Assembly (NCBI GenBank): GCA_021201135.1
Contig: JAJQGT010000018.1
Location: forward strand, 3,254-67,253
Reading direction: 5' to 3'
Length of the DNA: 64,000 bases
Origin: Oscillospiraceae bacterium
GTDB taxonomy: Bacteria; Bacillota; Clostridia; Oscillospirales; Ruminococcaceae
Shown: positions 8,898 through 36,835 of the stretch, piece by piece
Position numbering within the stretch: position 1 is the first letter of the stretch
How the letters are laid out: every line of letters starts with the position of its first letter
Translations under genes and position numbers: made by a program
The notes under the pieces: generated by a model
Seen by the model: the letters and a program-made list of their open reading frames with translations, nothing else
Databases searched by the model: none
Told to the model about the DNA's origin: nothing

Positions 8898-11279
8898 TTA
8901 TGCAAATAACGGTTGCCCGTTGTCGTCCGTAACGACGCCCAAGGCATCGTCATACCAATTTCTGCCCAGAACCAAGACTCCAAGTGGTGTCGATGTAATG
9001 CCGCCCTGCTCGGTAATCCTGTCAACCTGCCATTTGAAGAGCGAAACTGTGTATGGTTTCAACTTCACAAGAAGCTCTTTCGCTCTCTTAATATCGTGAA
9101 TATCGCAATCATAGAGCTCATCGATAAGCGGTTTATTGTCACCATACGGAACAATTACATCTGTGCCCTCGTCTTCAAACACTTCAAAATAGCTTCCGGC
9201 AGTCTTGAATGACTGAGTAAGGATATACTTGAGAGGTTTTGAAGAGAGCAGAGAGTAAATATAGGTGTCCAGATTCTCGATATAGAAGTCCTGATGATAA
9301 CCGTTTTCCTTGGCATAATACTTCCGATAGTAGTATGCAATCGCTTCATCCGAATCCAACTCCGTGAAATTGCCACCAAGCAAAACAGAGTTTGTCGCAT
9401 CTTTGCCCTTTTTTATATCTGGCAACTTGCTAAGATTCTCACCTTTCAGTCTCACTATGTAGACATTTGCAGACTTGTCCGACTCTCCGTTGCGGTTACA
9501 GCGTCCCGCCGTCTGAACAACGCTGTCCATCCCAGCCTGGATTCTGATTGCACTTCCGTAGGAGACATCTACGCCTGCTTCCAATACTTGCGTTGATGAG
9601 AGAATTACTTTCCCCCGCTTTTTTGCAAGCTCTGCGGCTTCGAGTGTGTCGCGGCGGTGTGCCATACACATCGAGGATGATAGGTGGAAGCAGGAGACAT
9701 CCAATTCCCTCTTTTCTGAAAACTCTTTGTAAAGCGTCGCTGCTTCAGCCTTTTTGTTTGATACTATCAAGAGACTGTTCGCAGTTTCAAGAATTCCGCT
9801 CCCGAAATCGACCACTTCTTCATACGACATCTCTGGCTCACATTTGCTCACGATATTTGTTCTCTTGAATACAGTCCAAATCTCTTCATCATGCTCAATC
9901 ATTTCTTTTGGGGTTGGAAGAAGAGGACGTTGGGCACATTCAAGAGCTGGTTGCGTGGCAGAACAGAGTATTATGTCGGCACCGCAGACTTCAGAAAGAA
10001 AAGCTATTGCCTGATTGAAGAGCGACAGCATTTTAGTCGGTACTGTCTGCACCTCATCAAATATTATAACGCTGTTACAAAGGCTGTTGAACCTTCGAAC
10101 ACAACTCGTCTTGTCCGAAAACATCGTGTTCAGTACCTGAACCAACGTGGTTATGATTACGGGGGCATTCCAACTTTCGATCATCAGTTCCCTTTCATCA
10201 AGTGCTTCCCCGTTGTCCCTTCCCACGGAAATCACATTGGAATGGTGCTCAAGGACTGTGCAACTGTCGCCGATATAATCTTCGATTACTTTTGAATTCT
10301 GGTCGATGATTGCAAGAAGAGGAATTGCAAATATGATTCTCTTCTTGTCGCTGTGCTCCTTGGCATGAGTCAGAGCATATCGAAGTGAAGTCAAAGTTTT
10401 TCCGGCACCTGTCGGGAGATTGAGACGATAGATACCGCTCGGCTTACTCGCAAACTCCTTGCAACGCTCCGACAGTGTCGCACGAGCCCTTGTTATATCA
10501 CTATCGGATGGCAAATCCGCAAGCCTGGCTTCGAAATGCGAAAGGCACTCGTCCCAGTCCGCCTCTTCTGTTTCGAGTGTGCTACCGCTCATAAATGCCG
10601 CAGTATCCGTCCGGTCGCCCTCGACGACCGCCGACAAAAGAAGCCTTGCAATAAGTCCACTATAAAAGTGCATCTCATTTTTGTTAAAGCTTAGCTTTGC
10701 CCAGACGGTTTTAACTTCCTCAACACACTTCGGAAAGAGCTCTTTCAGGACATCATGATATTCGGACTCCCTGAACCGCTCAATGGCTTTCTCAATTTCC
10801 TTATTTTGAGCGTTATTCTCGTCCAGCCTGTGGTCAAAGCCCACCTCTTCATGGTGCTCGTCCACCAAATCGAACTGACCATGATGTGCGCCGATTGCAT
10901 ATGCCATCAACTCGGCGGTAAGCTTTTCGTAGGATGAGTTGCTGTCCTTGTGGTATTCTCTGAGAATCAGCCTCACTCCAGCAAAAGTATGATTGACCGA
11001 GCCTCTTGTGACATCCTCTCCGAGAACCGCCCGAACAATATACTCCCTGTAGCTCGCCGTAAGCTTACCAACATCATGGAGAAGACCTATGACATAGGCG
11101 GTCACATAGAGTCCGATTGCCCGCAAAAGCTTTCCCGCAAGCTCAGCAGTCCTCGAATTATGCTCGAAAACCGTCTGAATCTCGAATGTGTCCCCACTGT
11201 CGCCGACCTTCCGTATGTGAGCTGGAAAAACACCTCTTTCCGTTAGCTCTTTTATAAGCTCCTCGCTGAAAATAATCAC
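8898..11279 (-). CDS. cas3: Cas3 helicase-nuclease, type I-C
   Basis: A 793-residue effector. The N-terminal HD nuclease has His40 and the His68-Asp69 pair (LLHDVGK); the helicase has Walker A (NLPTGAGKT), motif II IIFDEVQTVP, motif III CSATQP and motif VI QTAGRCNRNGE. It is recruited by Cascade and degrades target DNA. The first codon is GTG (11277-11279). It is the first gene of the cas operon, driven by the promoter at 11311-11339. All catalytic motifs are intact. Confidence 0.97.
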   Translation of the reverse strand: MIIFSEELIKELTERGVFPAHIRKVGDSGDTFEIQTVFEHNSRTAELAGKLLRAIGLYVTAYVIGLLHDVGKLTASYREYIVRAVLGEDVTRGSVNHTFAGVRLILREYHKDSNSSYEKLTAELMAYAIGAHHGQFDLVDEHHEEVGFDHRLDENNAQNKEIEKAIERFRESEYHDVLKELFPKCVEEVKTVWAKLSFNKNEMHFYSGLIARLLLSAVVEGDRTDTAAFMSGSTLETEEADWDECLSHFEARLADLPSDSDITRARATLSERCKEFASKPSGIYRLNLPTGAGKTLTSLRYALTHAKEHSDKKRIIFAIPLLAIIDQNSKVIEDYIGDSCTVLEHHSNVISVGRDNGEALDERELMIESWNAPVIITTLVQVLNTMFSDKTSCVRRFNSLCNSVIIFDEVQTVPTKMLSLFNQAIAFLSEVCGADIILCSATQPALECAQRPLLPTPKEMIEHDEEIWTVFKRTNIVSKCEPEMSYEEVVDFGSGILETANSLLIVSNKKAEAATLYKEFSEKRELDVSCFHLSSSMCMAHRRDTLEAAELAKKRGKVILSSTQVLEAGVDVSYGSAIRIQAGMDSVVQTAGRCNRNGESDKSANVYIVRLKGENLSKLPDIKKGKDATNSVLLGGNFTELDSDEAIAYYYRKYYAKENGYHQDFYIENLDTYIYSLLSSKPLKYILTQSFKTAGSYFEVFEDEGTDVIVPYGDNKPLIDELYDCDIHDIKRAKELLVKLKPYTVSLFKWQVDRITEQGGITSTPLGVLVLGRNWYDDALGVVTDDNGQPLFA

Positions 11280-11824: not shown

Positions 11825-12988
11825 TTAATTTTCAGACTCCATGCCCAGACCATTGAGCATCGCATCTGCTGAGTTGAGTTTGGAGCTGTAGTCGAGATGA
11901 GCGTAGATGTTTGCCGTTGTTGAGAAGTCGCTGTGACCGAGCCACTCTTGGATCTGCTTCATCGGAACACCGTTTACCAAGAGGAGCGAGGCGCAACTGT
12001 GCCTCAAGTCGTGGAATCGGATGTGTCTGAAGCCGTTGCTCTCAAGAAATCGTGAAAAGCCACTTGTGACTGCCTGTGGCGTTATAATATCGCCAAGCTC
12101 GTTTACACAGACGTAATCAAGATATTCCTTGTTGTAGCAACGCCCACAAAGACGACGGTTTTCCTCTTGTTCTTCTCTCTTAATCAAGAGCCTCTCTTTT
12201 ACAAACGGAACAAGCGGAAGCGTTCTCATACTTGACTTCGTTTTAGTTGTGTCCGATGCAACAAGAGTGAGCTTTCCATCCAGATTGCAGGCTGTAACCG
12301 TGTGCTGGACGGTGATGGTGTTACGCTCAAAGTCGATAGCATCCCACTTCATTCCTATTGCTTCACTTCGCCTGAGTCCATAGAATGCACCAAACATAAT
12401 GGGCAATTCAAGATTAGTTCCTTTGGAAGCTTCAAAGAGTGCATTGATTTCATCTGCATCATAGAAGCTTCCGACGAAGCGTTCTTTCCTCGGACGTTCA
12501 ACCTTGTCCGCCGGATTCACGTCTATCAGGTCTGTCTTCACAGCATACTTCAATGACCTGTGAATGTTTGTGTGATAGTGAATTACCGTCGAAGCACTGA
12601 CACGTTCCAATTCGTGAAGATAAAACTCCTGAATGTCGGTAGCTCTCAGATCCTTGAGAGCTATTTGTTTTTTACGGAAGTACGGTGAAATAACACCCTT
12701 TACCATCATCGAGTAGGAAGAATATGTTGGAACCGCCACAGTGCTTTTAATAATCTCAAGCCACTGTTCTATGAAATCTGCGAACAAGATGTCGCCATTC
12801 ATAGTTTTTGGCTCGTCGGGAACAAAGCTGCGTCTGGCATCCGCAAGGAATGCTTCGGCTTTCTTCTTGTTTCCCTTTACGGGAAGACCGGTTTTGAGCC
12901 ACTTGGTTTTCCTCTTTCCAAGGGAATCGGTATAACTTAATACGGCGTAGTAATAGCCGCTTTTTTCACTTAAATGTCCTGCTACCAT
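11825..12988 (-). CDS. Tyrosine recombinase, phage/ICE-type integrase
   Basis: A 387-residue integrase. The catalytic set is visible in the C-terminal domain: Arg in YGLRRSEAIG, His-x-x-Arg in HDLRHSCAS, His in WLGHSDFST and the nucleophile Tyr in TANIYAHLD. The N-terminal part has an AP2-like arm-binding region (YYYAVLSYTDSLGKRKTKWL) and a core-binding domain. The start is the ATG at 12988, seven or eight bases after AAGGAGG; the open frame upstream is the remains of another gene. Its 3' end faces tRNA-Ser, as for elements that insert into tRNA genes. Cysteines (CGRCYNKEYLDYVC) form a possible zinc knuckle seen in Clostridial integrases. Confidence 0.95.
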   Translation of the reverse strand: MVAGHLSEKSGYYYAVLSYTDSLGKRKTKWLKTGLPVKGNKKKAEAFLADARRSFVPDEPKTMNGDILFADFIEQWLEIIKSTVAVPTYSSYSMMVKGVISPYFRKKQIALKDLRATDIQEFYLHELERVSASTVIHYHTNIHRSLKYAVKTDLIDVNPADKVERPRKERFVGSFYDADEINALFEASKGTNLELPIMFGAFYGLRRSEAIGMKWDAIDFERNTITVQHTVTACNLDGKLTLVASDTTKTKSSMRTLPLVPFVKERLLIKREEQEENRRLCGRCYNKEYLDYVCVNELGDIITPQAVTSGFSRFLESNGFRHIRFHDLRHSCASLLLVNGVPMKQIQEWLGHSDFSTTANIYAHLDYSSKLNSADAMLNGLGMESEN

Positions 12989-13058
12989 AAATGTAACCTC
13001 CTTCTTTGTGTAGCAGATACACCTACTTATGCCGGGTTCCATTATACCAGAACCGGGT

Positions 13059-13166
13059 TCAAAATGGAGGACGTTCTGACACCGGCTCAATACTCATTAC
13101 GTCGGGATAATCCTTAAGCATGAGCCTGTATACTTCTCTCTGAGATATTTTTGAAGCGGTATTCAT
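13059..13166 (-). pseudogene. Truncated excisionase-type HTH gene
   Basis: The frame from the ATG at 13166 reads MNTASKISQREVYRLMLKDY and then PDVMSIEPVSE before losing the family pattern and stopping. This is the conserved N-terminus of the small HTH excisionases that precede tyrosine integrases in Clostridial elements; the expected helix-turn-helix (a STKT-type motif and basic tail, another 35-40 residues) is missing. The stub lies just upstream of the integrase on the same strand, the normal place for xis. Loss of xis would hinder excision. Confidence 0.55.
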
Positions 13167-17831: not shown

Positions 17832-17887
17832 AAGTCGTGAACATAAAACCTCAAAGACTTGCTTTATTTTCAGCGGTGTTGTATAAT
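17832..17887 (+). promoter_or_regulatory. Promoter of the helicase operon, copy A of a shared module
   Basis: TTGCTT (17859-17864), 17 bases, TATAAT (17882-17887). Upstream of the -35 lies AAGTC, 14 bases, TCAAAG, the same arrangement as at 28730-28785 and, reversed, 37910-37965. In this copy AAGTC and the GACTT beside the -35 also form an inverted repeat. Confidence 0.75.
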
Positions 17888-17942
17888 ATTTGTTGGAACA
17901 TCCTATGCAGATGAAAGTATGAATGTGAAAGGAATGTTTGGA

Positions 17943-20828
17943 ATGTTTGATTTCGGAAATGCAAATGATGCCCAGCGTGAGGCAATCATGACCACAAACG
18001 GGCCCGTGTTGATAACCGCCGGACCAGGTACAGGAAAAACATTTACTCTTGTGGAACGCGCCATCTACCTTATACAGGAATGCGGAGTTAAGCCGGAAGA
18101 AATTCTTATTGCGACTTTTACCGAAAAAGCAGCCAAAGAGCTTGTAACAAGAATTACTAATGAACTTTATGCTAGGAACATTTCTGTGAATGTAAACGAA
18201 ATGTATGTTGGAACATTTCACTCGTTATGCCTTCGTATTATCAAGGAACATCTGGAAGAAACGCATCTTAAGAAGAATTACCGACTTCTTGATTCATTCG
18301 ACCAGCAGTATATGGTCTATCAAAATATCTATAGGTTTAGAAACATAGATGGCTTTTCTAATGTCATTTCAGACAAAGGTGTTTGGCACCAATCATCCGA
18401 GATATGTGGCTATGTAAATCAACTATCTGAAGAACTTGTAGATATAGAGGCGATGAGTGCAGATGATAATCCCAACATAGTTGCTATCGGAGATATGCTT
18501 TCTTTATATCAAAAACTTCTAAGTGATGAGAATCTGATTGATTTTGCTACAATTCAAGTAGAATGCTATAAGCTACTTTTAGAGCATCCTTCCATACTGA
18601 ATGAACTTCAGGAACAGATTCGTTACCTGATGATAGACGAATATCAAGACACTAACTATATCCAAGAGCAAATTGTTTTTCTACTTGGTGGCAAACACAA
18701 CAACATTTGCGTTGTCGGCGATGATGACCAAGGTCTGTATCGCTTCAGAGGGGCTACAATTCGAAATATTTTGGAGTTTCCTTCTAAATTTGAAGGCAGA
18801 GAATGCAAGGTTATTCCATTGGTCATCAACTACCGCTCGAACAGCGATATTGTAGACTTCTATAATAACTGGATGCAAGCAACAGCGGGCAGCGATTTTA
18901 AGTTTTCTTGGGGCAGATTTCGCTATGACAAACAGATTGAACCACACGAGAAATCAACTATTCATAGTCCTACCGTTATTAAAGTGTCAGGCAATGAGGA
19001 TTCAGACGAATGGCATGACAAGATTCTTGGCTTTATAAAGCAACTAAAGGAGTCAGGAAAACTCACTGATTACAATCAAATTGCGTTTCTGTTCAACTCT
19101 GTCAAGCATCAGCGAGCTACAGCATTAGCTGATTTCTTGGAGAAGAATGATATTAGTGTCTACTCTCCCCGCTCTGATATGTTTTTCAAGAGGGATGAAA
19201 TACGGCTGATTATCGGGTGTCTTCTTCTGCTGTTTCCGAACTACGTCTCAAGCCTTCAGAAAGGCGAGCAAAAATATCTACAGCCGGAACACTGTACATA
19301 CTACACCGACTGTATAAAAATGGCGAATGAGTACGTTACAAAGCCCGAAAATAAAGAACTCCTCAAGTTTATAAGGAATCACGGCACTGAACATTTTAGC
19401 TTGCAAGGTACAACTGATTACGCATACTCCGGGCTTGTTTATCAACTGTTTATGTTCAAGCCGTTCAGTGATATACTCGATACAGATATGAGTGTCGGCG
19501 TAGCCAATATCAGACCAACAAGAAATCTTGCTCTGTTCACTCAGATAATCGGGAAATTTGAGTACTTACATAGAATCGACGTTCTTGATGGCACTGTGTA
19601 TAAAGGCAAACGACGTATAGATGCAAACACCGAACTCCTTTTCAGTACATATTTAAGATTACTATATGATGGTGGAATAACTGAGTATGAAGATGATGCC
19701 GAATATGCGCCGAGTGGATGTGTCTCATTCTTGACAATTCACCAGTCTAAAGGCATGGAGTTTCCCATTGTATTTGTGGACTCTCTTGGGAACGTACCGA
19801 GAAAAAGCTATGATGATCTGATGGGCGAAGTCGAAAGAAAATACTTCCACCGTCCTGCTTTTGAGCCATACGATATGATGAAGTATTTCGACTTCTGGCG
19901 TCTCTACTACACGGCATTTTCAAGAGCGCAAGACCTTTTGGTTCTCACCTGCAATGAGAATAACCGTACTCCGAGTAAGTACTTCTCTGAAGTCTATGAT
20001 GATTTGCCGACCACAAGTAGTCCGTCTTTTGACCTTACGGAATTTGATTTCAAGGAAGTCAAGAAGGTAAATCTGAAAAATACATTCTCGTTCACCTCAC
20101 ACATATCGGTTTATGAAACCTGCTCATTACAGTACAAGTTTTATCGGGAATTGGAGTTTATGCCGATTCGTCAGGAGGCTATGATGTTCGGTACTTTGGT
20201 TCACGAGACTATAGAGGATATACACCGTACAGTGCTTAAGGGTGAGGAACAGAAGGTCACCGAAGATAACATCACCAGATGGTTTAACGGCAACTATTTG
20301 TCTCTGGTGAAATCGGAGCATTCATACTTGGCAGAACCACAAAGAATGGCTGCATTAAAACAGGTATTGCGATATGCTGAGAGACAAGCAGACAAATGGG
20401 ATACCATCAAGCAAGCAGAAGTTGATGTCAGCTTGGTTCAGCAGGACTACATCATTGAAGGCAAGATTGACCTTGTGAAAGGCGAAGGCGACACTGTTGA
20501 GCTTGTCGATTTCAAGTCAGAGCGCAAGCCCGACATGGAGAAGGACAAAGTTCGGCTTGAACGTTATCGCCGACAGCTTCAACTTTATGCGTACCTGATT
20601 GAACAGCGCACAGGACAGAGAGTCTCCAAAATGCACGTTTACTATACCGGCGAGGAGAACAGCAATCCTATGGTGACTTTCCCCTACACCAAGAGTGCAA
20701 TCGAGGGAACAGTTGCAGCCTTTGACGACACAGTTCACAAGATACTCCACAAAGAGTACAATCACTGTGCCGATAACCCAAAGACTTGTAAGAGCTGTGA
20801 TTTCAGATACTATTGTCAGAATAAATAG
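17943..20828 (+). CDS. UvrD/AddA-type helicase fused to a PD-(D/E)XK Fe-S nuclease
   Basis: A protein of 961 residues. The helicase part has motif I AGPGTGKT, motif II DEYQDTNYIQ, motif III VVGDDDQGLYRFRGA, motif V TIHQSKGMEFPIVF and motif VI YTAFSRAQDLL. The last 250 residues are a RecB-type nuclease: Cys in YETCSLQYKFY, His/Glu in VHETIEDIHR, Asp and Glu/Lys in EGKIDLV and VELVDFKSER, and three late cysteines (KTCKSCDFRYYC) for a 4Fe-4S cluster as in AddB or Cas4. The ATG at 17943 (MFDFGNAND) follows AAAGGA at nine bases; earlier in-frame ATGs lack a site. It heads a six-gene operon with methyltransferase and Res genes, so a DNA-degrading defence role is inferred. Confidence 0.9.
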   Translation: MFDFGNANDAQREAIMTTNGPVLITAGPGTGKTFTLVERAIYLIQECGVKPEEILIATFTEKAAKELVTRITNELYARNISVNVNEMYVGTFHSLCLRIIKEHLEETHLKKNYRLLDSFDQQYMVYQNIYRFRNIDGFSNVISDKGVWHQSSEICGYVNQLSEELVDIEAMSADDNPNIVAIGDMLSLYQKLLSDENLIDFATIQVECYKLLLEHPSILNELQEQIRYLMIDEYQDTNYIQEQIVFLLGGKHNNICVVGDDDQGLYRFRGATIRNILEFPSKFEGRECKVIPLVINYRSNSDIVDFYNNWMQATAGSDFKFSWGRFRYDKQIEPHEKSTIHSPTVIKVSGNEDSDEWHDKILGFIKQLKESGKLTDYNQIAFLFNSVKHQRATALADFLEKNDISVYSPRSDMFFKRDEIRLIIGCLLLLFPNYVSSLQKGEQKYLQPEHCTYYTDCIKMANEYVTKPENKELLKFIRNHGTEHFSLQGTTDYAYSGLVYQLFMFKPFSDILDTDMSVGVANIRPTRNLALFTQIIGKFEYLHRIDVLDGTVYKGKRRIDANTELLFSTYLRLLYDGGITEYEDDAEYAPSGCVSFLTIHQSKGMEFPIVFVDSLGNVPRKSYDDLMGEVERKYFHRPAFEPYDMMKYFDFWRLYYTAFSRAQDLLVLTCNENNRTPSKYFSEVYDDLPTTSSPSFDLTEFDFKEVKKVNLKNTFSFTSHISVYETCSLQYKFYRELEFMPIRQEAMMFGTLVHETIEDIHRTVLKGEEQKVTEDNITRWFNGNYLSLVKSEHSYLAEPQRMAALKQVLRYAERQADKWDTIKQAEVDVSLVQQDYIIEGKIDLVKGEGDTVELVDFKSERKPDMEKDKVRLERYRRQLQLYAYLIEQRTGQRVSKMHVYYTGEENSNPMVTFPYTKSAIEGTVAAFDDTVHKILHKEYNHCADNPKTCKSCDFRYYCQNK

Positions 20829-20846: not shown

Positions 20847-21578
20847 ATGACGGAGCATTATGTCGAAAGAGAAGGCATCATATATGTTATTCCGGATGAT
20901 AAGCTTTACAAAAAATACGACAATGACGAAGCCTACATCGACATTCATGGAAGCTTGAGAGACAGTAAGTCACATAAGTATTTGAAGCGACTTGATTTTT
21001 TCGCAAACAATCCTCCCGAAGCACAAACCGAACCACTTCCACCTTACAGGAGTATAGGATCTCAGGTAAAAGATGATGTGCGTGATTTTATGGTCGAGGG
21101 TGCTAATATTTTTATTGACTGGGGTGTTGACAAATTCCTTAATGATGTATTCATCCCGAAGATTAAAGAAGTCAGATATGCCTTGACAAACAAGGACATA
21201 AAGGCTCTTTCAATCGTGAAAAATAGCAATCCTGTTATCGAGGATTCACTGACAAAGATGACTGCAGAGGAAATTGAGGCAGAAGAGCGAAGTGCTGTAT
21301 ATCATTGGCTTGCAATGCTCAAGAGTTTAAAGAAGATTAAAAATGCCGGTGTAATCGACATGAGCGAAACATTGGAAAAGCTCACTGATCCGGTTATGCT
21401 ACAAAAAGTCAACAGCTACTTCGATAAGAATCCGGAGTTGCTTGAGACAGAAGAGTGCGTAACTTCTCTGAGTCTTCTCGGAAGGGATTTGTATCAAGAA
21501 GAGCAGTTTGTGCCGATTCAGGCAGAAGAAATCGAAGCTATTGCGATAGCTATGTCAGACATAATAAGAAATGAGTGA
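20847..21578 (+). CDS. Unknown protein of the helicase-methyltransferase operon
   Basis: A 243-residue protein I do not recognise. It starts well after a GGAGG site and its end overlaps the next gene by 8 bp. The middle has a possible amphipathic or short hydrophobic segment (DFMVEGANIFIDWGVDKFL) and the C-terminal half is mainly helical and acidic (AEEIEAEERSAV, then EIEAIAIAMSDII). No catalytic motif is evident. Its tight placement between the helicase and the HEPN-motif gene suggests that it works with them, perhaps as a structural or adaptor subunit. Confidence 0.8.
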   Translation: MTEHYVEREGIIYVIPDDKLYKKYDNDEAYIDIHGSLRDSKSHKYLKRLDFFANNPPEAQTEPLPPYRSIGSQVKDDVRDFMVEGANIFIDWGVDKFLNDVFIPKIKEVRYALTNKDIKALSIVKNSNPVIEDSLTKMTAEEIEAEERSAVYHWLAMLKSLKKIKNAGVIDMSETLEKLTDPVMLQKVNSYFDKNPELLETEECVTSLSLLGRDLYQEEQFVPIQAEEIEAIAIAMSDIIRNE

Positions 21579-22454
21579 TACTATGGCTGAAAGTCGTTAT
21601 AACATAGGTAATTTAGAACTTGAAGAGATACGTCCCTTGCTTTGGGAGGCTATGAAATCTATGTGGAAAGGAAGTTCCCTAAAAGAAAAGACGTATATGG
21701 CAACAGACGACGATATTTGTTTGTCGGTAATTCTGCTTGCGATTGGTAAGAAACTTGTTGAAGATCCGTTTAAGAATTCAAACTCACATAGTAATCTTCC
21801 TGACCAAAAAAGCAAAGAAAAGATTATGGGCATAGTCTGGGAGTACGTCAACCAAGGTATTCTATATCTCCATGACCCAAGTCATAATATTTATAATATC
21901 ACCGAATATGGGCTTCAGGTTCTCAAGGCAGAAAAGCCGATTCCGCATGACCCGGAAGGCTATCTGGCTCACCTGAAAAGAGAAATACCGGACATAGACG
22001 GTGTTATTCTCACTTACATGACAGAAGCTATTACAACCTACAATCACAGATTATATCTTTCAGCCACAACTGCCATCGGATGTGCGTCTGAGAAGGCTAT
22101 TCTACTGTTGATAGAAGCTTATCGAGGGTTCACTCCATCTGAAAAAGAAAAGACAAAGTTTTCGGATATGTCCAACAAGACTGTAAAGAGGCAGTTTGAG
22201 GAATTTCAAAAAAAAGCTTTAAGGGTGTTAAAGGCAACATAAAAGATAAAGACTTGAATGACGGGGTGGATGGGATTTTAGACGGTGTTTACGACACACT
22301 CAGACTGAATCGAAATGCAACCGGTCATCCAACCGGTAAAACTATGGAAAGAGAAGATGTCTTCGCATCTCTCCAAGTATTCATTACCTATTGCAAACGA
22401 ATCTACGGGCTGATTCACTATTTTGAAGCAAACCCCAACACATCAGATACATAA
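21571..22454 (+). CDS. HEPN-motif protein split by a -1 frameshift at an A8 run
   Basis: The first frame (21571-22242) gives 223 residues, with GCASEKAILLLIEAYRG in its helical second half, and ends at TAA soon after a run of eight A (22208-22215). Reading back by one base on the tandem AAA AAA codons continues as SFKGVKGNIKDKDLNDG and on to 22454 with LNRNATGHPTG and LQVFITYCKRIYGLI. RNATGH fits the Rx4H motif of HEPN RNases, and the joined protein of about 294 residues would be complete only after the shift. A 6-bp hairpin CTTTAA/TTAAAG follows the run. This may be programmed slippage, phase variation, a mutation or a sequencing error. Confidence 0.72.
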
Positions 22455-22472
22455 AACGGAGGCAAACATACT

Positions 22473-24242
22473 ATGGAAAATGAACAGCTTACTTTTGAAT
22501 TTGAAAAACGTCCGACAATCAAAGGCTTCCCCGAACTGAGATGGACAGGCAAGCGTCCCTATGAGTCCACTCAGTACTACCCTGCCCAACTCCGTGAACG
22601 TTACGGTGAGGAGCAGGATGGTTGGATTAACAAGATATACTGGGGCGACAATCTCCAAGTCATGAGCCACCTCCTGAAAGACTACCGTGGCAAAATAGAC
22701 CTCATCTACATAGACCCTCCGTTTGATAGCAAAGCTGACTATAAGAAAACCATCGAAGTCAAAGGCGTTGGCAAAGCTGAAAGCGACATTTCCTCTTTTG
22801 AAGAAAAACAATATGGAGACATTTGGACAAATGATGAGTATCTCCAGTTTATGTATGAAAGGCTGATTGTTCTTCGAGAGTTGCTTTCTGATACAGGATG
22901 CATTTATCTGCATTGTGATTGGCATAAATCACATCATTTGAGAATGCTTATGGATGAGGTGTTTGGTGCTGATCGTTTTGTAAATGAGGTCATATGGCAC
23001 TATTCAGGAGCTGGGACGCCTAAAGGATGCTGGGCAAAACGTCATGATAATATTTGGGTGTATTCTAAGACATCCGAATATTGTTTTAATGCCGATGCCG
23101 TGAGAACTGAATATTCTGCAACAACCGTTGAAAGGTTTAGTCATGCTATTAATAATGTTCGAAATGGTGTGAATTTCGGTGCGCAATCTCTTAACCCGTT
23201 GGGAAAATATCCAGAGGATGTATTGGATATTTCAATTGAGGCACCTTCAGCAAGCATACGAACAGGATATCCGACACAAAAACCAGAGGCTCTTATCGAA
23301 AAAATAATTAAGGCCTCTTCTAATCCAGGGGATATCGTTTTCGACTGCTTCATGGGCAGCGGAACTACTCAGGCGGTTGCTATGAAGCTGGGGAGGAGAT
23401 TTATTGGGGCTGACATTAATCTTGGGGCGATTCAGACTACTACGAAGAGATTGTTGAACGTGGCGAAGTCGTTGGAGACGGAGGAAGAAGCTCAGCTTTC
23501 GCTTACTGATGACGGTGAGGATGAGGCTCAGGATGATGTCAAGTACACTGGCTTTGAGGTCTATAACGTCAATAACTATGACTTCTTCAGAAACCCTGTC
23601 CAAGCCCGTGACTTGATTATTCAGGCACTCGAAATCCAGCCGTTCCCGCAGAGTAATGTCTGGGATGGTGAACTTGACGGCAGGATGGTAAAAATCATGC
23701 CGGTCAATCGTATTGCCACAAAGGCAGACCTGGAGGAACTCAAGGCTAATTTGCCGTATAAGACCTATGAGAGACGCAAAGAAGAGTATCCGGGACAGCC
23801 GGTCGAGAAAATCACTATTGTCTGCATGGGACATGAGCCGGACTTGAAGGCATCTCTTGAGCAGGAGCTTTCCGACTATAAGCTTGATATTGAAATCGTG
23901 GATATTCTCCGTGATAAGACCGACCTTCAGCTCAAGCGTGAAGCGGAGGCAGAGATTGTCCGTGAAGGCAGTAAGCTTGTTATCCGCTCGTTCTATCCGA
24001 TGAACCTTATGCAGAAGCTCTCACTTCAGAAGGATTATTATGTGGAAGACTGGCGGCAACTCGTGGAGTCCATCATGATTGACTGGAACTATGACGGAGT
24101 TGTTATGCAACCGGCAGTCACCGATATTCCCGATAAGAAGGACATGGTTTCCGGCGTCTATGATATTCCCGAAGATGCAGGAACAATCAAGGTCAAGATT
24201 ACAGACCTGCTCTCGGAATCTCTTGAAATGGAGGTTGAGTAA
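22473..24242 (+). CDS. Beta-class DNA adenine methyltransferase, type III Mod-like
   Basis: A 589-residue protein. Motif IV LIYIDPPFDSKADY (around residue 75) comes before motif I DIVFDCFMGSGTTQAVAMKL (around residue 285), the order of beta-class N6-adenine or N4-cytosine enzymes; DPPF favours adenine. The region between is the target-recognition part. A C-terminal extension of about 240 residues (from YTGFEVYNVNNYDFF) resembles that of Mod subunits that pair with Res. The Res-like gene begins 6 bp after its stop. It should mark host DNA for the system. Confidence 0.92.
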   Translation: MENEQLTFEFEKRPTIKGFPELRWTGKRPYESTQYYPAQLRERYGEEQDGWINKIYWGDNLQVMSHLLKDYRGKIDLIYIDPPFDSKADYKKTIEVKGVGKAESDISSFEEKQYGDIWTNDEYLQFMYERLIVLRELLSDTGCIYLHCDWHKSHHLRMLMDEVFGADRFVNEVIWHYSGAGTPKGCWAKRHDNIWVYSKTSEYCFNADAVRTEYSATTVERFSHAINNVRNGVNFGAQSLNPLGKYPEDVLDISIEAPSASIRTGYPTQKPEALIEKIIKASSNPGDIVFDCFMGSGTTQAVAMKLGRRFIGADINLGAIQTTTKRLLNVAKSLETEEEAQLSLTDDGEDEAQDDVKYTGFEVYNVNNYDFFRNPVQARDLIIQALEIQPFPQSNVWDGELDGRMVKIMPVNRIATKADLEELKANLPYKTYERRKEEYPGQPVEKITIVCMGHEPDLKASLEQELSDYKLDIEIVDILRDKTDLQLKREAEAEIVREGSKLVIRSFYPMNLMQKLSLQKDYYVEDWRQLVESIMIDWNYDGVVMQPAVTDIPDKKDMVSGVYDIPEDAGTIKVKITDLLSESLEMEVE

Positions 24243-27926: not shown

Positions 27927-28005
27927 ATGTCGCCTGCCGGGCGACCACTTTTGGGAAGCCATCTGTTATAATATAGTTGTCACTTGGAGTTAAGGAGTGT
28001 GTAAA

Positions 28006-28710
28006 ATGAATAGCAATCTCCTGATAAACAGCCTCACTATTGACTGGTCTAAAGTCAGCCGTGAAAGCTATCTTCGAAAAATTCCTGCCATTAGCAAGCT
28101 GAATTATCTCGAATTTTCAAGCCCAGTGACTTGCTTGGTTGGTGAAAACGGGACAGGAAAATCCACTCTGCTTGAGGCTATGGCTATTTCATTCGGATTT
28201 AATCCCGAAGGCGGAACTGAGAATTACCTGTTTTCAACACACGACTCTCACTCAGAATTATGGCTGTCCAAAGGCACGAAAAGACCGAAGCACGGTTTCT
28301 TTCTCAGGTCGGAGTCCTACTACAACATAGCAACATATGATGAATACTACAACCATGAGCCAACTCTGCATATCAAATCTCACGGCGAGGCATTTCTGAC
28401 CATTGCGGAGCAAGACTTTGTGCCATATGGTTTGTATTTTCTCGATGAACCGGAGTCTGCGCTCTCTCCACAATCGCAGTTGGCGTTTCTGTATGAGATT
28501 TATAAGAATGCAGAAGCCGGTGCTCAGTTCTTCATCGCAACTCACTCACCGATTCTCTTGGGCATTCCGAACGCCGAGCTTCTTGGATTTGACGGTGGAG
28601 AAATACACAAGTGCCGCTATGAAGACACCAGCCAGTATCAGGTGATGGAGCTGTTCATCAACCATCGGGAGCAGGTTCTCCGGCATATTTTGGACGAATC
28701 GGACGAATAG
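28006..28710 (+). CDS. ABC-type predicted ATPase (AAA_21-like)
   Basis: A 234-residue ATPase. Walker A is VGENGTGKSTLLEAM near residue 44; Walker B is YGLYFLDEPESALSPQSQL, and the switch histidine is in FIATHSPILL. No membrane domain is attached, so it belongs to the soluble OLD/RecF-like group rather than transporters. The ATG at 28006 follows AAGGAG at eight bases; a GTG nine bases earlier is less well placed. A TATAAT lies at 27966-27971 but with no clear -35. It stands alone and its partner, if any, is unknown. Confidence 0.82.
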   Translation: MNSNLLINSLTIDWSKVSRESYLRKIPAISKLNYLEFSSPVTCLVGENGTGKSTLLEAMAISFGFNPEGGTENYLFSTHDSHSELWLSKGTKRPKHGFFLRSESYYNIATYDEYYNHEPTLHIKSHGEAFLTIAEQDFVPYGLYFLDEPESALSPQSQLAFLYEIYKNAEAGAQFFIATHSPILLGIPNAELLGFDGGEIHKCRYEDTSQYQVMELFINHREQVLRHILDESDE

Positions 28711-29618: not shown

Positions 29619-31415
29619 ATGGCTCAATATGATGTAAATAACTATACGGTTGGTACAATACTCTCAAACATAAAATCCGGAAGCATTGCTATTCCTGAAA
29701 TGCAACGTCCGTTTGTATGGGACAGTACCAAAGTCAGAGATTTGATAGATTCTCTTTATCAAGGGTTTCCTATTGGGTACATAATAGTGTGGCAAAATCC
29801 GAGTGTCAAATTAAAGGACGGAACTAAAGCTATCGGCAAAAAGGTTTTGATTGACGGTCAGCAACGTATCACTGCTATGGCTGCGGCAATAGTTGGACAG
29901 AAGGTTCTTAATGCTCACTATAAGTGGCAACGCATTTCTATCGCCTTTAATCCCCTTGAAGAGAAGTTTGAAGTAGCTAATAGTGCTAACTCTAAAAGCA
30001 GTAAGTGGATTTCGGATATTGCTCCCGTCATGGAACCTGATTTTGATACTTTCAACTTTGTTCTTGACTATTGCAAGAATAACGGAATTGAAAGCGAAAC
30101 GGCTCACATCAATAACGTAATAAATCATCTGAGAGGAATTCAACATAACAGTCTTGGTGTCATCACGCTTGCACCGGAATTGGATATCGATAGTGTTACC
30201 GAGATTTTCATCCGAATCAATTCCAAGGGAGTTGTCCTTTCTCAGGCTGATTTTGCAATGTCGAAGATTTCATCAAACGAGGAATACGGTGGAAATATCA
30301 CCAGAAAAACGATTGATTACTTCTGCCACTTGCTCGAGTCTCCGAACGATTTGAAGGACATCGAGAAGAATGATTCTGATTTTGCCAAGCGCTCGGAGTT
30401 TTCTGCAATCAAGTGGGCTGTGGAAAAGAGCAACGCCGTTTACAAAACTTCATATAGTGACATTCTCCACGTTGCGTTTACATACAAGTTCAAACGCGGT
30501 CGCTTGTCTGACTTGGTTAGCTTACTGTCTGGTCGTGATTTCGAAACGAGAGAATTCCGAGCTGAAATCGAGGCAGATTCCTTTGCACAACTTCACGAAG
30601 CTGTATTGGCAACGATAAACAAGAATCACTATGAAAAGTTTCTCATGATAGTAGATTCTACCGGAATTGTTCGTAGTTCGTTGATTCGCTCTCAAAATGT
30701 TCTGAACTTTGGGTATGCTCTCTATCTCGCACTTAAGGAAAGAAAAATTGACAGCAATGAAATTGAGAAAATTGTCCGTCGTTGGTTAGTATTAAGTATT
30801 CTAACCGGTCGTTATTCCAGTTCGCCGGAATCTGCTTTTGATTTCGACATAAAACGCTTCTTTGCTTATGATGACCCGATGGAATATCTCAAGTTGACGG
30901 AAGCAGGAGAACTATCCGATGCGTTCTGGAATGTTACTCTTGTACAGCGTCTGAATACTTCTGTAGCAAGTAGTCCGTACTTCAATCTCTATCTTATGGC
31001 GCAGGCAAAGAGCCATGATAAAGGACTTTTGTCTGACCATATCGAAGTGGGAACAATGCTTGAAAATCGCGGTGATATTCATCACCTGTTCCCAAAGAAT
31101 TATTTGGTAAAGAACCATATACCCCAATCGCAATATAACCAAATCGCTAATTATGCTTTTATTCAACAAGAGATTAACATCAAGATTCGTGATGACGCCC
31201 CTTGTGAATATATGAAAACCGTATTTGAACAGTGTCAGACAAAGAAGGCTGTTTACGGCGGTATCGTAGATAAGGAACAGTTACGCACGAACTTAATGCA
31301 GAATTGCATTCCCGATGGGTTTGAGGACATGGATATTTCAGATTATGACGCTTTCCTTGAAGCCCGTAGAAAACTAATGGCAGAAAAAATCCGTCAATAT
31401 TACTTTTCACTTTAA
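29619..31415 (+). CDS. GmrSD-like type IV restriction endonuclease (DUF262 + HNH)
   Basis: A 598-residue protein. The N-terminal DUF262/ParB-like domain shows IPEMQRPFVWDSTKV, QGFPIGYIIVW and VLIDGQQRITAM, which bind and hydrolyse nucleotide. The C-terminal part has GDIHHLFPKNYLVKN, the HNH (DUF1524) histidine pair, followed by a segment with conserved asparagines. Such fused GmrSD enzymes cut phage DNA with modified (e.g. glucosylated) bases. It is a single-gene defence system here, with a strong site AGGAGG at its ATG. Confidence 0.88.
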   Translation: MAQYDVNNYTVGTILSNIKSGSIAIPEMQRPFVWDSTKVRDLIDSLYQGFPIGYIIVWQNPSVKLKDGTKAIGKKVLIDGQQRITAMAAAIVGQKVLNAHYKWQRISIAFNPLEEKFEVANSANSKSSKWISDIAPVMEPDFDTFNFVLDYCKNNGIESETAHINNVINHLRGIQHNSLGVITLAPELDIDSVTEIFIRINSKGVVLSQADFAMSKISSNEEYGGNITRKTIDYFCHLLESPNDLKDIEKNDSDFAKRSEFSAIKWAVEKSNAVYKTSYSDILHVAFTYKFKRGRLSDLVSLLSGRDFETREFRAEIEADSFAQLHEAVLATINKNHYEKFLMIVDSTGIVRSSLIRSQNVLNFGYALYLALKERKIDSNEIEKIVRRWLVLSILTGRYSSSPESAFDFDIKRFFAYDDPMEYLKLTEAGELSDAFWNVTLVQRLNTSVASSPYFNLYLMAQAKSHDKGLLSDHIEVGTMLENRGDIHHLFPKNYLVKNHIPQSQYNQIANYAFIQQEINIKIRDDAPCEYMKTVFEQCQTKKAVYGGIVDKEQLRTNLMQNCIPDGFEDMDISDYDAFLEARRKLMAEKIRQYYFSL

Positions 31416-31430
31416 AGGAGACCCAAAAAA

Positions 31431-31599
31431 ATGCTCGGTGCAATCATTGGCGACATCGACCATCGGCAGTATCGCCGAGGCGGCGTATGGGGTTCCGGAG
31501 TGGATGAAGGACAAAGCGGTATCTTACTTGGATGAACCGCTGCGTGACGTACTCAGAAGGTGGAAGGAGTTCGTAATTCATGATAAAAAATTCGAATGA
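31431..31599 (+). pseudogene. ADP-ribosylglycohydrolase remnant with internal deletion
   Basis: After AAAGGAG an ATG opens MLGAIIGDID, the family's exact N-terminus. The sequence then jumps, one base out of frame, to IGSIAEAAYGVPEWMKDKAV and SYLDEPLRDVLRRWKEF, the family's C-terminal end. About 200 middle residues with the catalytic Asp residues are gone. The tail frame runs into the start of the Sel1 gene. This is a clear deletion scar. Confidence 0.85.
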
Positions 31600-32500
31600 A
31601 GATATTGTGCCGACTATTTCAATAAAAGCAAAAGAGGGCTGGAGTTGGAGTAAAGAAGAAGCAGAACTTCTGACAAAGTTAGGCTATGCCTGTGAAAAAG
31701 GAACATTCGTTGAACGGGATTATAAAGCTGCTCTTCAATTTTATAAATTGGCAGGAAAAGCAGGAGACAATCAGGGACTTTCAAATCTTGCCTGGATGTA
31801 TCAGAATGGATTTGGAATAGAGAAAGATGTCCAAAAGGCTATAGAAATCTATGAAAAAGCAGCTGATGCCGGCAATTCGACAGCAATGATAAATCTGGGC
31901 AACATATACGAATACGGAGAGTTGGGAGAGCCGGATTATAATAAGTGCTTTAAATGGTATAAAAAAGCGGCTGAATCTGGTGATAAGAAAGGACTCTTTA
32001 ATTATGCAAATTGTTATCACTGGGGATATGGAACCAGAAAAAGTTACAAAAAAGCTTTTCCGATTTTCAAACAGCTTGCGGATGAGGGATATATAGATGC
32101 GTGTTTCTATGTCGGATTATATTATCAGGACGGTCTGGGAAGGGTGAAAGATTATGAACAGGCAAGACGGTATTACAGGCGTGGAGTACTGGTGGATGAC
32201 GCATATTGTTTTAATCAGCTGGGCGTAATGTATGCGAAAGGACAAGGCGTAAAAAAAGATATTAACGCTGCACTGGATTATTATCAAGAGGCTGCCAGAT
32301 TGGGAGATTGGCTTGCCTATACAAATATAGGCTGGCTTTATGAGAATGGAGATATTGAAGAAGCCGATATAGAGATGGCAAAAAAATATTATAAGACAGC
32401 GGCTGAGCAGGGAGAAGAAAATGCTCAGGAGGCATTAAAGCGTCTTGGTGCAGATGAGGAGCATAAATTCATTCAGAAGAAGTACAGCGATGCGACTTGA
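31580..32500 (+). CDS. Sel1-repeat protein A, lacking the N-terminal domain of its paralogues
   Basis: A 306-residue protein made of about seven Sel1-type TPR repeats (e.g. LGYACEKGTFVERDYKAALQ, LAWMYQNGFGIEKDVQKAIE). No signal peptide is present, so it acts in the cytoplasm, presumably by protein-protein contacts. It starts MIKNSNEDIVPTISIK; compared with the third paralogue (MIKNSD at the start, DDDVPTIRLKFN before its first repeat) the roughly 115-residue N-terminal domain has been removed in frame. Its codons are more AT-rich than those of the other two copies. Confidence 0.88.
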   Translation: MIKNSNEDIVPTISIKAKEGWSWSKEEAELLTKLGYACEKGTFVERDYKAALQFYKLAGKAGDNQGLSNLAWMYQNGFGIEKDVQKAIEIYEKAADAGNSTAMINLGNIYEYGELGEPDYNKCFKWYKKAAESGDKKGLFNYANCYHWGYGTRKSYKKAFPIFKQLADEGYIDACFYVGLYYQDGLGRVKDYEQARRYYRRGVLVDDAYCFNQLGVMYAKGQGVKKDINAALDYYQEAARLGDWLAYTNIGWLYENGDIEEADIEMAKKYYKTAAEQGEENAQEALKRLGADEEHKFIQKKYSDAT

Positions 32501-32545
32501 TTACATGGTGCGTCTATTTCACACTGATATAAGGAGGTAACAATT

Positions 32546-33655
32546 ATGCAAATCAGAAATTCCAATTCTGACGGCAACAAGGTTTTCTTCCTTGAGCCGG
32601 AGGAAAAGGGCGAGAGCCACGTTATCATGCACACGCTTCACTGGAATGAGCCATCTGAAGTCGCAGGGCTTCTCGCAATGAATTCTGACAAGGATATGGA
32701 TCTCGGGGTGGAGCTTGTCATCAACGAGACAGACGACCGAAGCTTTATGGTCATCCACAATCCACACATAGATGTTCCCTACCCGAAGGTCTTTGTTGCG
32801 AAGTACATAACCGACGATTTCGGCGACAGGGTGATTATTGATGTTGAAGATGACGACCTCGATGTTATCCCATTCATCAGAGACAGATACCTCACCCTTG
32901 ACGAGACAATAGTCATCCCGTTGGTTCTGAATCCCGAATGGGGCGGAAGTCGAACGGATCTCCTGAATGACCTCGGCTGTGCATATGAAGATGGCACGAT
33001 TTTCGAGCAGGATTACACCGCCGCCTACAATCTCTTCAAAATAGCCGCTGACAAGGGCGATGAGACCAGCCTTTATAATCTTGGGATGATGTATCTGCAC
33101 GGCGAAGGTGTCGAAAAGGATATTCAAAAAGCAATAGAAATGTTTGAAGCCTCAGCCGAAAAAGGCAACACTGATGCGATGTATAACCTTGGACAAATAT
33201 ATGGTGACGAGAATCAAGAAGTCTTTGATTATAGCAAAACGTACAAGATGTTCAAAAAAGCGGCGGATATGGGAAACGAAGACGGAGAGTTTGCCCTTGC
33301 TGTCTGCTATTACTATGGGTATGGAACTCCTAAGAATTACAAGAAAGCTTTCTCTTTGTTCAAGAAGCACGCAGATGCGGGAAATGGCAAATCTTGTTCA
33401 TATATTGGTTGTCATTACAGATACGGGCATGGCGTTGAGAAGGATTACGATTTATCGAGAAAGTATTTTCGCAGGGGATATATCTATGGCGACAGCTATT
33501 CTACTGCTGAGATGGGAATCATGTATGAAAACGGAATTGGCGTAGATAAAGACCTGAACGCAGCACTTGATTACTATGCAGAAACCGCTGAAATGGGAGA
33601 ACCTTATGCCATTGAGGCACTCAAAAGGCTGAAAGGAGAGGAAGCTGATGATTAA
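32546..33655 (+). CDS. Sel1-repeat protein B with unknown N-terminal domain
   Basis: A 369-residue protein. Residues 1-120 form a beta-rich domain I do not recognise (NSNSDGNKVFFLEPEEKGES, then VINETDDRSFMVIHNPH and VFVAKYITDDFGDRVIIDVE). The rest is about six Sel1 repeats (LGMMYLHGEGVEKDIQKAIE and others). The start follows AGGAGG. It overlaps paralogue C by 8 bp, so the two are co-translated. The repeated cassette of N-domain plus solenoid suggests a recognition module. Confidence 0.88.
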   Translation: MQIRNSNSDGNKVFFLEPEEKGESHVIMHTLHWNEPSEVAGLLAMNSDKDMDLGVELVINETDDRSFMVIHNPHIDVPYPKVFVAKYITDDFGDRVIIDVEDDDLDVIPFIRDRYLTLDETIVIPLVLNPEWGGSRTDLLNDLGCAYEDGTIFEQDYTAAYNLFKIAADKGDETSLYNLGMMYLHGEGVEKDIQKAIEMFEASAEKGNTDAMYNLGQIYGDENQEVFDYSKTYKMFKKAADMGNEDGEFALAVCYYYGYGTPKNYKKAFSLFKKHADAGNGKSCSYIGCHYRYGHGVEKDYDLSRKYFRRGYIYGDSYSTAEMGIMYENGIGVDKDLNAALDYYAETAEMGEPYAIEALKRLKGEEADD

Positions 33656-34766
33656 AAATTCTGATCCGAACGGGAACAATGTGTTTATCTTGGGACCTGA
33701 GCCGGAAGGAGAGAGCCACATCATCATTCATAGGATGAGCTGGGAGCATTTCAGCCCGACCGCTAAGCTTCTGGGGCTGGAAGGAAGCACAGGTAAAGAG
33801 GTTGGTTATGAGACAGTATACAATACCAAAGATCACCGCACCTGCATGGTCTTCTATAACTACAATACATACAAGCCCTACTCTAAGGTGGCTGTGGCTA
33901 AGTATATCAAGGACGAAGAAGGAAACGAGGTTCTGATTGATGTGACAGAGGACGACCTCGATGTAATTCCTCATATCAGGGAAGATTTCCTGACGGCAGA
34001 CGATGATGTCCCGACAATCCGCCTCAAGTTCAACCCGAACTGGGAGGGAGAAAAGTCGGAGCTTATCAGCGACCTTGGAGTCGCCTTCGCGTCCGGAACT
34101 ATCTTTAAGAAAAATTACGACATTGCTAATAAGTTGTTTCTGGCTTCGTCACGAGCCGGAAGCCTCGTTGGAACAAGAAATTTAGCTCGTGTTCATGCTA
34201 TCGGTTTGGGCGTAAAGAAAGACCCACAATTCGCCGTTGAACTCTACAAAATTCTCGCCGATGAGGGTGATGAAAAATCTATGATAGCCCTCGGTACAAC
34301 CTATGAATCGGATGATTTGGGTGAGCCGGATTACAAAGAAGCTTTCAAGTGGTATAAAAAAGCCGCTGATTGCGGAAACCAGACAGGTATAATCAAAACA
34401 GCCTTCAACTACTATTATGGTCGTGGCACCCAGAAGAACTATAAGAAAGCGTTCGCACTGTTCGAAGGTCTTGCAGACAGAGGAGAGCCGACCTGTTGCT
34501 ATCATGCGGGTCTATGCTACCAGAACGGACAAGGTGTCGCAAAAGACTACGCCAAGGCAAGAAGATACTACCGCCTCGGAGCATCTGCCGATGACGACCT
34601 CTGCCTTTCCAAGCTCGGTGAGCTATACGAAAAAGGTCTCGGTGTGAAGAAGGATCTTGACGAAGCCATCAGGCTCTATCGCCTTGCAGCGGATAAGAAT
34701 GAGCCAAGTGCTATTGAGGCACTCAAGAGATTAGAAAATAATCAGAACAGTGAGGAAGCTCCATGA
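33648..34766 (+). CDS. Sel1-repeat protein C with the same N-terminal domain as B
   Basis: A 372-residue paralogue of B: the N-terminal domain has the same landmarks (NGNNVFILGPEPEGESHIII, then TKDHRTCMVFYNYNTY, and DDLDVIPHIREDFLT), followed by about six Sel1 repeats (ARVHAIGLGVKKDPQFAVEL and others). The ATG overlaps the stop of B and is preceded by GGAGAGGAAG. Its own stop overlaps the start of the next gene (ATGA). No enzymatic motif is visible. Confidence 0.88.
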   Translation: MIKNSDPNGNNVFILGPEPEGESHIIIHRMSWEHFSPTAKLLGLEGSTGKEVGYETVYNTKDHRTCMVFYNYNTYKPYSKVAVAKYIKDEEGNEVLIDVTEDDLDVIPHIREDFLTADDDVPTIRLKFNPNWEGEKSELISDLGVAFASGTIFKKNYDIANKLFLASSRAGSLVGTRNLARVHAIGLGVKKDPQFAVELYKILADEGDEKSMIALGTTYESDDLGEPDYKEAFKWYKKAADCGNQTGIIKTAFNYYYGRGTQKNYKKAFALFEGLADRGEPTCCYHAGLCYQNGQGVAKDYAKARRYYRLGASADDDLCLSKLGELYEKGLGVKKDLDEAIRLYRLAADKNEPSAIEALKRLENNQNSEEAP

Positions 34767-36537: not shown

Positions 36538-36804
36538 TTGGAAAAAGCTCCATCGGACATTTGCAGGGAGTACATAGCCTTGGGCTTTGCCCGGAGCGTG
36601 GACTTTTTCGATTGTAAAACGGATGTTGATAACAGCGGTCTGAAACAACGCAAGGACGACTTCATAGCCTACTTTGACATCGAGGACTGGCGGTACACCA
36701 TCATCAACGCCGGTCACTATATGGCGAAGATAAATCTTTGTAAGCAGATGGAGGAATACTTCCCCGACTGTGGAAACTCGAAGTTTATTTATGGGTTGGA
36801 GTAA
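36538..36804 (+). CDS. Small unknown ORF
   Basis: An 88-residue frame with a TTG start and no good ribosome site, ending FPDCGNSKFIYGLE. The amino acid pattern (YFDIEDWRYTIINAGHYMAK) looks like a real C-terminal part of a protein rather than random coding, so it may be the tail of a gene whose 5' end was lost when the HD gene was placed upstream. A strong terminator follows at once. Confidence 0.35.
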   Translation: MEKAPSDICREYIALGFARSVDFFDCKTDVDNSGLKQRKDDFIAYFDIEDWRYTIINAGHYMAKINLCKQMEEYFPDCGNSKFIYGLE

Positions 36805-36835
36805 AAAAAAGCAGCCGGGATTCCGGCTGCTTTAA
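36804..36835. terminator. Bidirectional terminator between convergent genes
   Basis: GCAGCCGG (36811-36818) and CCGGCTGC (36823-36830) with a GATT loop, flanked by A8 on the left and TTTAAT on the right. It serves the rightward island genes and the leftward small genes. Confidence 0.9.

Follow-up and report, generated by a model that had tools for sequence, protein, structure and literature searches.

The window is the whole stretch of DNA analysed here, 64,000 nucleotides from an Oscillospiraceae bacterium. It contains an operon with the gene order UvrD-PD(D/E)XK, X, HEPN, Mod, Res (with a TnsA-like end) and WYL (Table 1), in agreement with the initial annotation, which had called the operon restriction-like. 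The Mod protein matches PF01555 (E 1e-53) and the PADLOC family MTase_III (E 5e-70). The Res protein matches PF04851 (ResIII, E 1e-5), PF08722 (TnsA-like, E 2e-7) and PADLOC REase_III (E 4e-7). A Mod methylase and a Res helicase-nuclease, the pair that serves as criterion for a Type III restriction-modification (R-M) system, are thus both present. Gene X matches nothing in Pfam or PADLOC at E ≤ 0.001.

Table 1. Features at the split HEPN gene and in the surrounding operon
Feature	Position in window	Strand	Basis or remark
Relaxase ORF, 94 aa missing in frame relative to the sister element (L091, 8128–9570)	16578–17738	+	
UvrD-type helicase, C-terminal PD-(D/E)XK domain	17859–20828 (first possible start)	+	domain match
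Gene X, 243 aa, overlaps HEPN start	20847–21578	+	
Frame-0 ORF, 223 aa: winged-helix part and first HEPN helices, motif absent	21571–22242	+	ORF list and homology
A8 run with in-frame heptamer A_AAA_AAA (22209–22215)	22208–22215	+	A6 in sister L055
−1 frame tail, 79 aa and stop: last HEPN helices	22215–22454	+	homology and sister model
6-bp hairpin after the run (arms 22217–22222 and 22228–22233)	22217–22233	+	
RNATGHPTG, Rx4H motif in −1 frame	22311–22337	+	position counted by hand
Mod-like N6/N4 DNA methylase, 589 aa	22473–24242	+	Pfam, PADLOC
Res-like helicase with TnsA-like nuclease end, 867 aa	24249–26852	+	domain match
WYL-domain regulator, 350 aa	26874–27926	+	domain match

The operon and its cargo slot

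The same operon is carried by Ruminococcus sp. MAG U_126731 (genome G1056, locus L055), which is of the same genus as the window and is called the sister below. Identities between the two are 98% for UvrD, 85% for X, 76% for the frame-0 part of HEPN and 96% for its tail, 83% for Mod, and 97% for both Res and WYL. Among 31 genomes of the genus, DNA of positions 20847–24242 was found in three: the window's own genome, the sister, and one where 408 bp of Mod match at the end of a contig; the same DNA had no near match among plasmids. The Res protein occurs in four of 297 genomes of the family.

A UvrD-PD(D/E)XK gene precedes Mod and Res in the window and in the eight plasmid operons viewed, as two ORFs in one of them (L005). 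The slot between the UvrD and Mod genes is empty (nothing annotated or found) in genome G114 and in seven of the eight plasmid operons viewed. In the eighth, from Spirosoma (L010, 6310–7891), it contains two other genes, and their proteins gave no match to X or HEPN; one of these two shows a weak DUF6615 match (E 0.0003). Genome G229 has X alone, at 40% identity, with no HEPN profile match in its genome at E ≤ 0.001, while the slots of the window and the sister hold both X and HEPN. Gene X was found in no plasmid or viral contig, and a search of 391 genomes of the class returned only the window's own copy, though the sister and G229 carry X. X and HEPN seem to be optional cargo of a restriction operon in which the slot between the helicase and Mod genes may be empty, hold X alone, or hold X with HEPN. 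A contig-end ORF in genome G133 (L092, 3912–5018) combines matches to the UvrD start and to a middle part of Res, and represents either a misassembly or an internal deletion.

Other genes of the window lie to both sides. A gene for a Cas3-like HD helicase (8898–11279, minus strand) adjoins that of a tyrosine integrase (11825–13090, minus strand), and this integrase end is common to the window and the sister element. The ends of the piece missing from the relaxase share the letters DK, and the loss of these 94 aa suggests that the mobile element is decaying in this lineage. Downstream of WYL are genes for a short AAA-type ATPase (237 aa, 27997–28710) and a GmrSD_N/DUF262 protein (29619–31415), perhaps further defence cargo, and then three consecutive Sel1-repeat genes (31580–34766).

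The split HEPN gene and its relatives

Read from the ATG at 21571, the HEPN gene runs through CAA AAA AAA GCT and stops at a TAA (22240–22242) 27 bases past the run, exactly the break that had been claimed; an alternative start, the ATG at 21583, aligns with the start of the sister gene. The −1 frame is open from 22215 to 22454 and does contain RNATGH, correctly described as a HEPN-type motif (Rx4H, with a polar residue after the R). That the two frames make up one protein is borne out by homology: frame 0 (26% identity) and the −1 frame (37–38%) align in order to the same single-frame proteins, encoded on plasmids of Mycobacterium marseillense (L002) and Agrobacterium vitis (L003), with E values of 1e-14 to 2e-8 for the set of eight sequences searched. 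Both were also among the matches of frame 0 when it was searched on its own by tblastn in the plasmid collection (5e-8 and 2e-6), and at the place of the motif they have RNDAGH and RNEAGH. The −1 frame is therefore not a chance ORF. The collinear match of the two pieces to a single protein also rules out a reading as two separate genes.

In the sister the HEPN gene reads through in a single frame; its tract is A6 against the A8 of the window, and the flanking bases agree. The structure predicted for this intact protein consists of a winged helix and a HEPN-like domain (pLDDT 90); a search of a viral structure library with it gave no match at E ≤ 0.001. The gene product is probably an RNase. 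Pfam gave no match for frame 0 of the window or for the tail at E ≤ 0.001. DUF4145 (PF13643) matched 19 of 55 homologues weakly at E ≤ 0.1 (best 0.0012) and did not match the sister protein at that threshold. PADLOC, NCBIfam and PHROGs gave isolated odd matches among the 55 homologues, to two, two and three families respectively, with one member each.

Homologues were collected at 68 loci besides the window: 60 on genome contigs (confirmed from 107 pattern matches), four on viral contigs, two on plasmids, and two whole-genome matches; L003 and L059 are two records of the same protein. The motif is present by construction at the 64 loci found with a pattern that contains it, and copies without the motif are missed by that pattern. 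The motif falls within one ORF of more than 200 aa at 63 of the 68 loci. The remaining five comprise L056, interrupted by an in-frame stop, L069 and L073, which change frame elsewhere, L063, which is without the N-terminal part, and L071, which is cut by a contig end. Breakage in the family is thus sporadic, L056, L069 and L073 being broken at other places, and the split at the A-run site of the window recurs at none of the 68. Over the five codons that align with the break, the sister has the longest A run of the 63 (six), two loci reach five and the other 60 have four at most; a slightly wider stretch includes A7 in L061, L068 and L072, all in one frame. The initial annotation had held that homologues all in a single frame and free of an A run would make the break a simple mutation. 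The comparison comes close to this, the lone run of at least six A at the aligned codons of the 63 being the in-frame A6 of the sister.

Close relatives of the window gene are few. The frame-0 protein was found in one of 297 genomes of the family (its own), and the HEPN profile in one of 394 genomes of the order (its own) and three of 398 of the phylum (its own and two distant ones). Viral contigs and phages gave no close relatives of frame 0, and plasmids gave four distant matches only. A 22-nt pattern preceding the run, searched in viral contigs, found nothing. A weak match of 22 residues is present at the viral locus L016. The immediate neighbours of the homologues were also scanned (122 proteins, leaving out the two of the sister and one broken piece of L056) and are mixed: the 25 best-filled of the 111 matched families include integrases (4), resolvases (3), ResIII (2), GmrSD (2), Abi_C (2), PIN_12 (2) and one N6/N4 methylase. 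Hence the HEPN family is spread over mobile and defence surroundings and is not bound to this R-M system.

Origin and effect of the frame break

The gene lies in two frames, both homologous to single-frame proteins; the sister copy is in one frame with A6, and the site is not conserved. The probable explanation is a recent and unprogrammed, perhaps leaky, knock-out or knock-down at the A run, in a gene for a winged-helix and HEPN protein, probably an RNase, carried as cargo of an R-M operon on a mobile element; the one-frame form is presumably ancestral. The A tract (A8 here, A6 in the sister) places the halves of the gene in different frames, and the main product would be the 223-aa protein, without the Arg and His of the motif and the last helices, which would leave the RNase off or strongly reduced. 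Slippage at the run, either ribosomal (−1) or transcriptional (+1), would probably still yield a minority of full-length protein, and the indel may in this way be a leaky 'savior' that tempers a costly effector.

Some full-length protein from the A8 gene is plausible by analogy, because A_AAA_AAA is slippery in published E. coli reporters. With cassettes from one gene family, those reporters are described as shifting at 63% with 11 A, 40% with nine A and about 10% with A_AAA_AAA, that is seven A (PMC3711429). For human apoB, an eight-A run is reported to yield about a tenth of full-length product; the same source gives eight A, in place of nine, for IS elements of Deinococcus and Nostoc (PMC1088944). 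'Savior' indels with low compensatory shifting are the subject of a review (PMC5009743).

The state of the tail bears on the age of the break. Compared with the sister, the tail has seven synonymous and three non-synonymous changes, and the conserved part before the break seven and six; the break is therefore probably recent, or the tail is still translated. With free drift over half of the tail's divergence, one expects about 10.9 non-synonymous changes (P(≤3) 0.005), whereas a quarter gives 6.6 (P 0.10) and is compatible with the data; the numbers are small and the model simple. A constrained tail would equally fit full-length translation through programming or switching.

A programmed frameshift or slippage that sets the level of active RNase by design, the built-in safety catch of the initial annotation, is one alternative. 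In its favour, the constrained tail is joined by an in-frame A_AAA_AAA, preceded at a few bases' distance by a Shine–Dalgarno-like GAGGA and followed by a hairpin; this A8 has the sole in-frame A_AAA_AA(A/G) heptamer among the seven operon and neighbour genes checked. The hairpin is indeed there, with its six base pairs, but it is no better than chance: of 200 shuffles of the 75 nt that follow the run, 170 fold at least as well (z +0.98), and the shuffle test supports no shift-promoting structure in this stretch. Moreover GAGGA is identical in the sister, and the hairpin arms are kept there with one loop change; neither is special to a shifting gene, because the unshifted sister has both. A published criterion for programmed frameshifting is at least five clustered split genes with a conserved site (PMC3711429), and here the window's gene is the only one split at its site. 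We consider programming extremely improbable and reject it; a slippery run at a frame break is by itself no evidence of programming. The number of A8 runs in the window is unremarkable, two against 8.5 expected in shuffles. The only other one (36803–36810) lies between ORFs of at least 130 aa and adjoins a G+C-rich inverted repeat resembling a terminator.

Phase variation, in which replication slippage in the A tract would reversibly switch the effector on and off in the population, draws on the fact that two copies of one genus differ at the tract itself, in length and so in frame, with identical flanks, and that the tail is undecayed. A difference of two bases needs one 2-base slip, two 1-base steps or an A9 ancestor, and an actively varying tract would easily account for it. 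Yet two copies cannot demonstrate reversibility, 62 of the 63 aligned rows (all but the sister) have no run of at least six A at the five codons, and eight A is short for a contingency tract. We regard such switching as unlikely. A sequencing or assembly error, the true run being of another length and the gene intact, is quite unlikely: the run is seen in one assembly only, and homopolymers are a frequent site of error on some platforms, but this assembly has 32 contigs with 100% completeness and 1.19% contamination, and short-read platforms seldom miscall a run of eight bases. The one-frame comparison that decides for a recent unprogrammed break is with a single close sister.

The operon DNA of window and sister is mostly 88–100% identical in bins of 150 bp (83% in the last), with two tracts of divergence. 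One (about 21,450–21,900, 63–80%) covers the end of X and the N-terminal part of HEPN; the other (about 22,800–23,550, 46–84%) covers the middle of Mod. Residues 181–270 of Mod are 23–37% identical to the sister and 83–93% identical to the otherwise more distant G229. Exchange of recognition regions is ordinary in methylases, and the divergent middle of Mod would be such a region. Divergence of both the HEPN N-terminus and Mod in the same pair, one pair only, may hint at matched specificity or exchange; recombination in each tract independently, or rapid evolution, accounts for it equally well. Highly doubtful, to our minds, is a fuller version in which the RNase is a specificity-matched guard of the R-M system, its N-terminal half exchanged together with the Mod recognition region and the A tract serving as a reversible or leaky catch that keeps the RNase down after a change of specificity or entry into a new host.

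On the reading we prefer, a recent unprogrammed break, the window presents the likely defence RNase of a restriction operon, caught soon after a slip in an A run turned it off or down. Should bypass of the run prove measurable, the break would represent a 'savior' indel occurring naturally in a bacterial immune effector; otherwise it would be an ordinary recent loss.

Comparison with known systems

A narrow literature search (HEPN with R-M and slippage; HEPN anti-phage) found no published account of this case. Proteins with DUF4145 are described as occurring in R-M operons, with the proposal that R-M restrains the RNase (Anantharaman et al. 2013, PMC3710099). The window family resembles these HEPN RNases, as presented there, in its Rx4H motif followed by a helix and in its location inside a restriction operon. 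It differs in the weakness of its DUF4145 matches and in its N-terminal winged helix, and the window copy is split. PrrC, an anticodon nuclease guarded by a type Ic R-M system according to the same source, is likewise a HEPN effector within an R-M locus (PMC3710099). The R-M system of the window is of another kind, and no ABC ATPase domain was found in its protein: Pfam gave no ATPase family for the sister at E ≤ 0.1 or for frame 0 and the tail of the window at E ≤ 0.001, and in the model the N-terminal part forms a winged helix. The operon is like Type III R-M in that its Mod-like methylase adjoins a ResIII helicase-nuclease, and unlike it in the UvrD-PD(D/E)XK gene upstream and the TnsA-like end of Res. 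With the 'savior' indels and slippage-corrected genes treated in PMC5009743 and PMC1088944, the split gene shares a homopolymer indel whose effect may be partly undone by slippage.
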